From positions 1 through 64,000 of IMG/VR virus record IMGVR_UViG_3300002933_000006: a stretch of 64,000 bases of DNA. One strand, written 5' to 3'. The notes under the pieces are model-generated. The model saw only the letters and a list, made by a program, of their open reading frames with translations, searched no databases and was not told where the DNA came from. How positions within the stretch are numbered: position 1 is the first letter of the stretch; each line of letters begins with the position of its first letter. This DNA comes from a virus. This document shows positions 56,117-58,369 of this stretch, one piece after another. The translations under genes and the position numbers were made by a program.

Positions 56117-56611
56117 ATGTTTTCAATATATAAGATTACTAATACAGTTAACAATAAGATCTATATAGGATTTTCGTCCAGGAACCCAATGGATAGATGG
56201 TACAATCATCAACGATGTGCCATAAACAGTAAAAAAAATACGCATTTATATAATGCTATGAGAAAATACGGTCTTAATAATTTTCAATTTGATATTATAT
56301 ATCAGTCCAATGATTGTACCCATACTCACAAAATAATGGAAAATTACTTTATTGTAGAATATCGTACTTATGTTGGCTTTCCGGACTGCAACGGTTATAA
56401 TATGACCCTCGGCGGCGAAGGCGCAGTAGGAAGAGTAGATACTCCCGAAACTACAACAAAACGATCTACTGCAAAAATAGGTAAAAAAAGAGCGTCGATG
56501 ACATTAGAGCAAAAAGCTAAGATATCTGCATCAAAAAAGAATAAACCCTGGTCTCCAGCAAGATTAGCAATAGGATACAAAAAGAAACCCACAGAAGTGG
56601 GTTCCTGTTAG
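56117..56611 (+). CDS. GIY-YIG homing endonuclease (Seg-like, with NUMOD3 repeats)
   Basis: 164 aa. N-terminal catalytic domain: FSIYKITNTVNNKIYIGFSS (S-I-Y...Y-I-G), then RWYNHQRCAINSKKNTHLYN and the family Glu near KIMENYFIVEYR. The C-terminal ETTTKRSTAKIGKKRASMTL / QKAKISASKKNKPW are NUMOD3-type DNA-binding repeats. Free-standing homing gene on the opposite strand to its surroundings. Its last codons coincide with the tmRNA terminator hairpin. Confidence 0.88.
   Translation: MFSIYKITNTVNNKIYIGFSSRNPMDRWYNHQRCAINSKKNTHLYNAMRKYGLNNFQFDIIYQSNDCTHTHKIMENYFIVEYRTYVGFPDCNGYNMTLGGEGAVGRVDTPETTTKRSTAKIGKKRASMTLEQKAKISASKKNKPWSPARLAIGYKKKPTEVGSC
56576..56603 (-). terminator. Terminator of the tmRNA gene
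   Basis: Minus strand: AACCCAC / GTGGGTT, 7-bp stem, loop TTCT, then TTTCTTTTT. Embedded in the last codons of the convergent GIY-YIG gene. Confidence 0.85.
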
Positions 56612-56890
56612 TTTCTGTTACGAGGTATAACTACCCTAAGCAGTTTTTAGGCTGCTAATGCGAATGTATTATCATTTGCGGTTACTTCTTATTTGCTGAT
56701 TACGTCAGTCAACTCTCGTGTTGCCTCTTTCGTTATCTCACCATGTCGAAACCGGTCGGACCCAACGAAATATACTCTGTTACATGTCACCGCTTCGCGC
56801 TTGCGGTCGAATATACTTCGGTGGATCCGGGGAGAATCGAACTCCCGTCCACAGCGCCTTCACTACGAAGGAATTACAACAATTCTTTAC
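56604..56890 (-). ncRNA. ssrA: Circularly permuted (two-piece) tmRNA
   Basis: Rescues stalled ribosomes. The order on the minus strand is reversed relative to a normal ssrA gene. First comes the acceptor piece, ending in a T-arm (GGGAG TTCGATT CTCCC) and CGGATCC-ACC at 56820-56829. Then follows a 56-nt intervening segment, then the mature 5' end GGGTCCGACCGGTTTCGACA from 56763. The 7-nt ends GGGTCCG and CGGATCC pair fully (one G-U) to form the tRNA-like acceptor stem. The tag frame at 56650-56679 reads ANDNTFALAA and stops with TAA (56647). The final A of CCA is not encoded. Limits: acceptor-piece 5' end and coding-piece 3' end are estimates. Permuted genes are known in alphaproteobacteria, some cyanobacteria and some betaproteobacteria. 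Confidence 0.93.
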
Positions 56891-56897
56891 TTACCGC

Positions 56898-57146
56898 TTA
56901 TACTGTTAAAACTAAAGCAATAACCGGAGGGGGAGAAAATGTATTAATAAATGCTATCCATTCATTCGCGGCCTCTTCGGTGGTCCAAATACGACTCGAT
57001 GTTTTAGTATTTGGGTCATCTGTGCTGTTAATAAAAGTTCCATCTGTTGCTCCGGCACTAACCAATTCTGCAATTTTAGCGTCACGGATCGGTCTTTCTT
57101 CGGCAGTAAGAGATCTTGCAAACTTTACCTGAGTTGTGATTGTCAT
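56898..57146 (-). CDS. Small phage protein, 82 aa
   Basis: TITTQVKFARSLTAEERPIR, DPNTKTSSRIWTTEEAANEW and a hydrophobic end PPPVIALVLTV. Reads straight toward the tmRNA gene; its stop is within 10 nt of the acceptor piece, so the two may be co-transcribed. Unknown function. Confidence 0.55.
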   Translation of the reverse strand: MTITTQVKFARSLTAEERPIRDAKIAELVSAGATDGTFINSTDDPNTKTSSRIWTTEEAANEWIAFINTFSPPPVIALVLTV

Positions 57147-57258: not shown

Positions 57259-57627
57259 TTAAACACAGCTCGGTCCGTACTTATTTTCACCTGGTGTGCT
57301 GGGGATAAACATGATAGCCAGGCTAACGACCCATCCAACATATGGTACTAGAGTTAGTAAAATCCATACACCACTTTGGTCAAAGTCACGAATACGTTGA
57401 CTACCTGCGGCCCAACTGGTTACACCAACTGCAATGAATCCTGCGAATACTGCAAAAAATAACAAATATGCCAACGGTGCAACTGTGTCTGCGAGTGCTC
57501 CTGCAACACAACCAACAATAGCCAACCCAATTAATGCACCAATTTGAGCCAACAGTAATACATTATAACTTTGGCGATTACGACGTCCACTGAACTTAAA
57601 TAAATCTTGAAATACTGGCTTACTCAT
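57259..57627 (-). CDS. DUF805 membrane protein, 122 aa
   Basis: FKFSGRRNRQSYNVLLLAQI, then TM segments, SQRIRDFDQSGVWILLTLVP (the conserved R-x-x-D-x-x-x-S-G-W/V) and STPGENKYGP, all in the order of bacterial DUF805 proteins. Four TMs predicted. A host-type inner-membrane protein, function unknown. AAAGGGG is 7 nt before its ATG; the structured RNA element lies directly upstream. Confidence 0.8.
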   Translation of the reverse strand: MSKPVFQDLFKFSGRRNRQSYNVLLLAQIGALIGLAIVGCVAGALADTVAPLAYLLFFAVFAGFIAVGVTSWAAGSQRIRDFDQSGVWILLTLVPYVGWVVSLAIMFIPSTPGENKYGPSCV

Positions 57628-57648
57628 ATAATACCCCTTTAATTAAAC

Positions 57649-57961
57649 TGTTATATTGAAACATACTACAGGAAGAACCACATCGCTCAACACCACTTGT
57701 TGCTTTGCTTTCTCATTACTGCCTACTGTTATATTCCGCCGCCTCAGATTTATATTGTTGCTACCTCGGACGCGATGGTGTCTTGTCCTACTTTGCAACT
57801 ACCCCTGGTTTCATGGATTGTATACTCCCTTCATGCTTCTAGCAAGGCTAGCTCGCTAGCGAATCGGGCATTATTACAGTATACAATCCCTAACGGTATA
57901 GGTAACCTAATATGTTTCAATATAACAACGGGACTTATACGTTTCGCAACGAGTGCCCGTT
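57649..57961. ncRNA. Structured RNA candidate of unknown class, about 310 nt without ORFs
   Basis: A gene-free stretch of 340 nt with strong complementarity: a 17-bp closing helix between 57649-57665 (starts TGTTATATTG) and 57911-57927; a perfect 12-bp helix GGATTGTATACT at 57815-57826 with 57878-57889; a nested 5-bp hairpin GCTAG-CTCG-CTAGC at 57847-57860; and a compound hairpin at 57927-57961 (AACGGG / CCCGTT enclosing CGTT-TCGC-AACG). Strand is undetermined. On minus it would be the leader of the DUF805 gene; on plus an independent RNA. I could not match it to RNase P, 6S, SRP, a group I intron or a known riboswitch. Confidence 0.65.
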
Positions 57962-57968
57962 ATTAAAA

Positions 57969-58298
57969 TTACTCTGCTACTGCGTCAAGCAATGCACGTG
58001 CTTTGATATCTTCCAATGATGGCTTAGTCTTAACTTTAGCACCTTTAGTAGATACTACGCCATTGTACTTGGCATCAGCCGCGTCGATTGCTGCTTTATA
58101 GTCAGCATTTGCATACAACTCTGATGTCTTAAGGAAAGTAACCAATGCCGGCTTGGTCATTGCTGTTGGCAACTCTAACAAATTAATGTCTGAGTCTGTT
58201 TTAGCCAAGATCTTAACACGTGTCATGTCACCAGCGAAACGTACTTTGTACTGGCCTTTAGTTTTAGAAACACCACCAACTTTGAACAATTTAGTCAT
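57969..58298 (-). CDS. Conserved phage protein, 109 aa
   Basis: ATG 58298 follows GGAG by 8 nt (an upstream in-frame ATG overlaps the ribosome site). KLFKVGGVSKTKGQYKVRFA, and an Ala/Lys-rich helical C-terminus. Its leader contains a hairpin (TATGCT...AGCATA). Single promoter at 58370. Similar to small abundant early proteins in T4-like phages; unknown role. Confidence 0.55.
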   Translation of the reverse strand: MTKLFKVGGVSKTKGQYKVRFAGDMTRVKILAKTDSDINLLELPTAMTKPALVTFLKTSELYANADYKAAIDAADAKYNGVVSTKGAKVKTKPSLEDIKARALLDAVAE

Positions 58299-58369
58299 TT
58301 TGTAAAACTCCATTTTTAAGTTAAATTAAATTTACTGCTTTATGCTAGACACACTCCAGCATATTTCAT

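Follow-up and report, generated by a model that had tools for sequence, protein, structure and literature searches.

RNA C, a conserved structured RNA of uncultured phages that is absent from Rfam and often lies in front of tRNA genes

Among structured phage RNAs, ROOL is ~580 nt long. GOLLD RNAs, many of which exceed 800 nt, and ROOL are often encoded beside tRNA islands (PMC12286853). Smaller stable phage RNAs occupy the same kind of niche: rnaC and rnaD of phage T4 (139 and 119 nt, respectively) lie inside its tRNA cluster. In bacteria, the precursors of 16S and 23S rRNA form long leader-trailer helices, which are cut by RNase III, and bear a boxB-boxA leader (PMC10250234). The RNA described here, named RNA C, is likewise a structured phage RNA; it shares its niche with the T4 RNAs, and its loci resemble rRNA operons in layout. 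RNA C is ~185–285 nt in size, GOLLD being three to four times larger and 16S and 23S rRNA many times longer. It was found only in viral contigs; for GOLLD and ROOL, prophages are known as carriers too. One copy lies in the window, the 64,000-nucleotide stretch analysed here, which is part of a 69,201-base virus record of IMG/VR. The RNA in the window is a member of a conserved family that is absent from Rfam and is carried by more than 120 uncultured phage contigs in IMG/VR, with ~125 copies besides that of the window.

The window copy lies between a gene for a 114-residue protein and a DUF805 gene, on the minus strand like both of them (Table 1); this orientation was assigned from the homologues and from the promoters and tRNAs that accompany them. 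A first-pass annotation, made from the sequence alone, had described the region as an ORF-free stretch held by a 17-bp closing helix, a perfect 12-bp internal helix and a compound 3′ hairpin, and had considered such helices very unlikely to arise by chance. The observation was confirmed. The folding energy of positions 57640–57970 was far below that of dinucleotide shuffles on both strands (z = −4.5 for the minus strand and −3.9 for the plus strand), and none of 100 shuffles reached it. The closing helix is present and is longer than had been given (19 consecutive pairs, one of them G-U), while the 12-bp helix was seen exactly as described, pairing 57878–57889 with 57815–57826. The compound hairpin also exists (57928–57960), not as a part of the RNA but as a separate element that lies 5′ of RNA C on the coding strand. 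Strictly, the stretch is not ORF-free, being traversed by ORFs of 51, 67 and 89 codons, yet these found no support as genes, and the homologues vary as a paired RNA does. The nearby tmRNA gene, which had been placed at 0.8 kb, was measured to lie 0.75 kb downstream. When the window copy was folded in isolation, its MFE structure preferred another pairing over P2, the family fold lying 6 kcal/mol higher; this copy is a divergent member of the family, with a weak P5/P6 domain.

Table 1. Coordinates of the RNA C copy, its parts and the neighbouring features in the window
Feature	Position	Strand	Basis
RNA C copy, subfamily II, ~277 nt with both strands of the closing helix	57650–57926	−	R1 match and fold z
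P1, 5′ strand of closing helix, 19 consecutive pairs including one G-U	57908–57926	−	Sequence
P1, 3′ strand of closing helix	57650–57668	−	Sequence; long variable closing helices in most homologues
P2, long-range helix, 5′ side, GGTTACCTATACCGTTAGGG	57888–57907	−	Compensatory changes in A4
P2, 3′ side, GGCGGCGGAATATAACAGTAGG	57722–57743	−	R1 match, A3/A4 covariation
P3 arm, inner hairpins with GCTAGC-rich stem and 12-bp helix	57815–57889	−	P3 pairs covary (A3, A4)
P4 arm, extended subfamily II form: P4a, P4b (GTTGC/GCAAC), P4c (GGAC/GTCC)	57746–57805	−	Covariation of arm alignment
Junction J2/5, CAGTAATGA; AGTAATGA invariant	57713–57721	−	Invariant columns of A1 seed
P5/P6 domain, weak pairing in window copy, holds TGGTGT	57678–57711	−	Sequence and homologues
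114-residue gene, upstream of RNA C	57969–58313	−	No Pfam match; locus anchor in 58 viral contigs
DUF805 gene, downstream of RNA C	57259–57627	−	Pfam PF05656, E = 2.1e-21
tmRNA gene, tag ANDNTFALAA, 0.75 kb downstream of RNA C	56556–56911	−	Rfam, ARAGORN
Conserved hairpin right after the stop codon of the 114-residue gene (ACGGGCACTCG...CCCGT)	57928–57960	−	88–92% identical in L003, L005, L015

The search for homologues was anchored on the 114-residue gene upstream of the RNA, in 58 viral loci (names such as L003, L011 or L017 denote the viral loci compared with the window). The structured stretches behind this gene differed from phage to phage; short conserved blocks were common to the window RNA, L011/L012/L013 and L017, and 18 fixed bases from these blocks were used as a search motif. 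The motif was found in 79 viral stretches of IMG/VR and only once in the genomes of 84,980 bacterial and archaeal species (257 Gb), which is chance level. That single match, in a Planctobacterium, was discarded as fortuitous, as it was not confirmed by R1, a covariance model constructed from 11 sequences with the window copy left out of the seed. R1 rendered 76 matches in the 18-base-motif set; a second set, selected with two different motifs, gave 51. Among the anchor loci it recognised L017 (a seed member), L011 (64 bits) and the window (positions 57664–57912, 39.4 bits, E = 4.6e-8, covering the full length of the model, 1–196), where the match comes together with P1, P2, P3, P4 and the AGTAATGA junction. 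At L127:92–515, two copies of RNA C stand in tandem. A further motif, GGCGRCGGA followed after a gap by AGTAATGA, proved too loose, with at least 119 stretches and no R1 match in the 100 loci searched. A blastn comparison with 50,697 named phages, in which the queries were the window region and six sequences of RNA C, B or A taken from relatives (B and A are described below), gave no real homologue, and Rfam yielded only chance matches to the window region at E ≤ 10 (mir-960 and a plastid intron fragment); the first-pass annotation had been unable to place the RNA in a known class. The proposal that this might be a new phage ncRNA was upheld by the family covariance model, by covariation in two separately selected alignments, by the absence of Rfam matches and by the restriction to viruses. 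No description of RNA C was found in the open-licence literature of PubMed Central; an earlier one in subscription papers or preprints is possible.

Covariation was analysed in A3, an alignment of 46 distinct sequences, and in a second, separately selected alignment, A4, both of which were fitted to R1 and are therefore biased towards the structure of this model. In A3, 93.1% of the cells were paired, as against 69.9% when partners were shuffled and 38–46% when they were slid; double changes were seen in 39 of the 52 pairs (score 0.445 versus 0.148). The values for A4 were 93.0% paired, 44 of 52 pairs with double changes and a score of 0.539 versus 0.171, the controls for both alignments amounting to ∼70% (shuffled) and 33–46% (slid). 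Pairs of P1 covaried in both alignments. Those of P2 were constant in the first alignment, held so by the first motif, and were variable with compensation in A4 (for example UA to AU, AU to GC, or GC to CG to AU). The P4 arm was aligned with MAFFT with no structure given, its helices being read from the same sequences; 95.7% of the positions were paired, 8 of 13 pairs had changed on both sides, and none of 500 shuffles was as good. The P4 arm of the window copy is compensated as well, with A-U for G-C, G-C for C-G, C-G for U-A and G-C for U-A. The homologues were checked for helices broken without compensation, and the opposite was seen. The structure of RNA C is real.

The fold consists of a three-way junction of P1, P2 and P5, in which P1 closes the RNA and the P3 and P4 arms lie inside P2. 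The closing helix is long in most copies (mostly 18–31 bp) and its sequence differs between subfamilies. P2 begins after a short linker from P1 and pairs CCTANN with NNTAGG, and then CCGTT with GGCGG, while the conserved junction AGTAATGA connects to P5/P6. Most subfamily I copies have a GNRA tetraloop at the tip of P4. In subfamily II, that of the window, the arm is longer and its loop carries ACACCA (57776–57781 in the window copy); the P6 loop of this subfamily, TGGTG(T), is complementary to it. Judging from this complementarity, TGGTGT in P5/P6 and ACACCA in the P4 loop form a candidate loop-loop contact, which is beyond the reach of covariation because its bases are invariant. Loci L085 and L108 lack both the long P4 arm and P6, which fits such a contact. 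A pseudoknot between GCCGC of the P3 loop and GCGGC was also considered and was discarded, since on inspection by eye it failed in other sequences.

A tRNA gene was present at most 400 nt downstream of RNA C in 48 of 84 copies, a setting similar to the phage tRNA islands of GOLLD; the window itself has only the tmRNA nearby. A tRNA or tmRNA lay within 1 kb in 52 of these copies and, taking all such genes within that distance, 228 were on the same strand as RNA C and none on the opposite one. A tmRNA was found within 2.5 kb in seven copies, that of the window included. Among 74 distinct upstream regions, 26 contained a boxA (no more than one mismatch), its distance being almost constant, and 25 a sigma70 promoter, whereas simple base shuffling of these regions gave expectations of 0.1 and 2.6, respectively. 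In 17 of 20 boxA-bearing copies a promoter preceded boxA (1.0 expected from the same kind of shuffles), mostly 25–27 nt ahead, and a small boxB-like hairpin, often with a GNRA loop, lay between the two; some boxA copies had a second promoter ∼100 nt further upstream. Members in tRNA arrays often have RNA C as the first element after promoter, boxB and boxA, and end 10–30 nt before the tRNA, while some other copies have their own promoter at the start and that of the next gene at the end. At its 3′ end, RNA C of L065, L090, L102, L106 and L125 overlaps a sigma70 promoter that serves the next gene and, in the last four of these loci, this end (TTGACAAT...) doubles as the −35 box. The promoters and boxA leaders, together with ends that fall in the promoter of the next gene, argue for an RNA produced in its own right rather than as the leader of a following gene. 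Immediately upstream of the window copy there is no promoter or boxA, nor does a tRNA adjoin it, and Rfam and ARAGORN detected no RNA gene in the window besides the tmRNA.

Many RNA C loci (about one-third of those searched) contain two further RNAs, B and A, in the order C-tRNA-B-A or C-B-A. RNA B is ∼200–330 nt long and has a highly conserved core, GGGTGGTAGTCTT...AATTACCGCCGGGGGATGCAGAGCA (for example at L114:5714–5911, L017:2708–2921 and L011:6730–6945). RNA A, of ∼145 nt, is closed by a long helix of variable sequence and includes a hairpin with a GACG loop (for example at L003:3556–3700, L071:7522–7665 and L017:2937–3082). The structures of both are RNAalifold predictions. Model R3 detected RNA B in 27 of 90 sources and model R2 detected RNA A in 23 of 90, some of these sources being seed members in each case. 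Neither RNA matched an Rfam family, and neither was found in the window.

RNA C loci share with rRNA operons a promoter, a boxB-like hairpin, boxA, a structured RNA enclosed by a long helix whose sequence is free, a tRNA behind it and additional RNAs after that; the order in E. coli rrnB is 16S-tRNA(Glu)-23S-5S and that of the phage loci C-tRNA-B-A. The likeness is limited to the layout because sequence similarity did not exceed chance. Local alignments of RNA C with E. coli 16S, 23S and 5S rRNA (rrnB) scored no higher than shuffled sequences, Rfam gave no rRNA match in the window, L114 or L014, and the conserved loops could be paired with E. coli rRNA over no more than 6–8 nt. The best local match, to 16 nt of 16S rRNA (AAGCGGTGGAGCATGT), was not above shuffles, and its bases co-change with P2 in other subfamilies; similarly, the complementarity of GGTTACCT to 8 nt near the 3′ end of 16S rRNA was given no weight because GGTTACCT is part of P2. 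As for other known RNAs, the GOLLD model did not match the window stretch at E ≤ 10, or L114 and L014 at E ≤ 5; the ROOL model of Rfam did not match the window stretch at E ≤ 10 and, at the same threshold, the lack of Rfam matches led to a group I intron or RNase P being discarded. Kinship with T4 rnaC and rnaD was rejected, R1 having no match on L258 and the conserved motifs being absent. RNA C has no recognised tag-coding part or tRNA-like domain, which sets it apart from its neighbour in the window, the tmRNA.

The hairpin that follows the 114-residue gene is kept in L003, L005 and L015, all of which lack RNA C; it persists in relatives that have a different RNA at that place. Its inner sequence is conserved in relatives (GGGCAyCGCTG...AAGCGTATwAGTCCC), exceeds what a terminator needs and is not followed by a T-run. 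In L015 and L016, a deletion fuses this hairpin to the second half of DUF805, so that RNA C and the start of DUF805 are gone; RNA C is therefore dispensable in these close relatives. Elements of other kinds were observed in this region. A structured element termed type D, closed by a long inverted repeat, occupies the slot before DUF805 at L061:5836–5983 and L062:3825–3972, and a weak relative lies beside RNA C in L271. A type E element of ∼57 nt, closed by TAGCACA/TGTGCTA, stands after the 114-residue gene and before RNA B at L006:6376–6426 and L020:6382–6438, and phages without DUF805 have other RNAs behind the same 114-residue gene. On the plus strand of the window, a GIY-YIG endonuclease gene (56117–56611) overlaps the end of the tmRNA gene; the T4 tRNA cluster contains the homing endonuclease gene segB.

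The explanation we favour, with a probability of about 0.6, is that RNA C is a stable, processed phage RNA that acts in trans. Its place before tRNA genes and its rRNA-type start signals suggest a phage-made, processed RNA acting in infection, and a leader like that of rrn operons, with tRNA or tmRNA genes nearby, would place its action in translation. RNA C would be transcribed in the same direction as the genes beside it, and the transcript would fold. From the layout, we infer that the long closing helix would be cleaved by RNase III or a nuclease of similar kind, as happens to pre-rRNA; the released RNA, presumably stable, may then act in trans during infection, most likely on translation or on the phage tRNA/tmRNA pool. 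In the clade of the window, RNA C would probably be released from the transcript of the 114-residue gene. Arguments against the favoured explanation are the divergence of the window copy, whose weak P5/P6 and own MFE structure depart from the family fold, the absence from the window of a boxA leader, an adjacent tRNA and RNAs A and B, and the loss of RNA C from L015 and L016. A bolder proposal, which we regard as tentative and rather unlikely, is that these loci are a small counterpart of the rRNA operon in large uncultured phages, comprising tandem sigma70 promoters, boxB-boxA, RNA C, a tRNA, RNA B and RNA A, in which the long closing helices would serve as processing sites and the three RNAs would be matured together into one phage ribonucleoprotein or RNA complex acting on the host translation machinery.

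The strongest rival, since many copies begin tRNA operons, is a role in cis: RNA C would be a module of tRNA/ncRNA transcription units, for folding or processing or as a spacer for boxA-dependent antitermination, that would aid transcription and cutting of the tRNAs downstream and would have no function once released. The copies in arrays, which often open the operon after promoter, boxB and boxA and close before the tRNA, are what such a module would look like; this role is nevertheless unlikely, since many copies have no tRNA behind them, several lie between their own promoter and the next one, and the internal sequence and fold are conserved far beyond the needs of a spacer. The niche in phage tRNA islands, as for GOLLD and ROOL (PMC12286853), along with the ornate fold, the GNRA-capped arm and the candidate loop-loop contact, would also suit a structural RNA of phage particles, or a scaffold or RNA-only assembly, as proposed for those two RNAs, but GOLLD is three to four times the size of RNA C, and we consider this quite improbable. 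Control of the DUF805 gene had been raised in the first-pass annotation, and the window RNA does stand directly before the DUF805 start codon. That L061 and L062 have another structured element in this slot cuts both ways: it would suit a leader, yet it also means that the place before a related DUF805 can be filled by something other than RNA C. A riboswitch-like or regulatory leader goes with a constant class of downstream gene, whereas the gene behind RNA C varies with the locus, being most often a tRNA and otherwise one of varied, unrelated genes, several of them with their own promoter. Since, in addition, next-gene promoters overlap the 3′ end of the RNA in the five loci named above and phages without DUF805 have other RNAs after the 114-residue gene, a leader role for the protein gene that follows, which in the window is DUF805, is very unlikely. 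Chance folding of an AT-rich intergenic region has nothing in its favour beyond what a single sequence can offer, is refuted by the covariation across ∼125 homologues, and its probability is practically nil. As a whole, the earlier interpretation is partly supported.

A conserved structured RNA found in more than 120 phage contigs, and with no entry in Rfam, points to an unfamiliar function of RNA in these viruses. Its occurrence within tRNA operons, the rRNA-type leaders and the presence of two more unlisted RNAs make its processing and binding partners directly testable, and the seed alignment and model can now be used to search transcriptomes and phage genomes.
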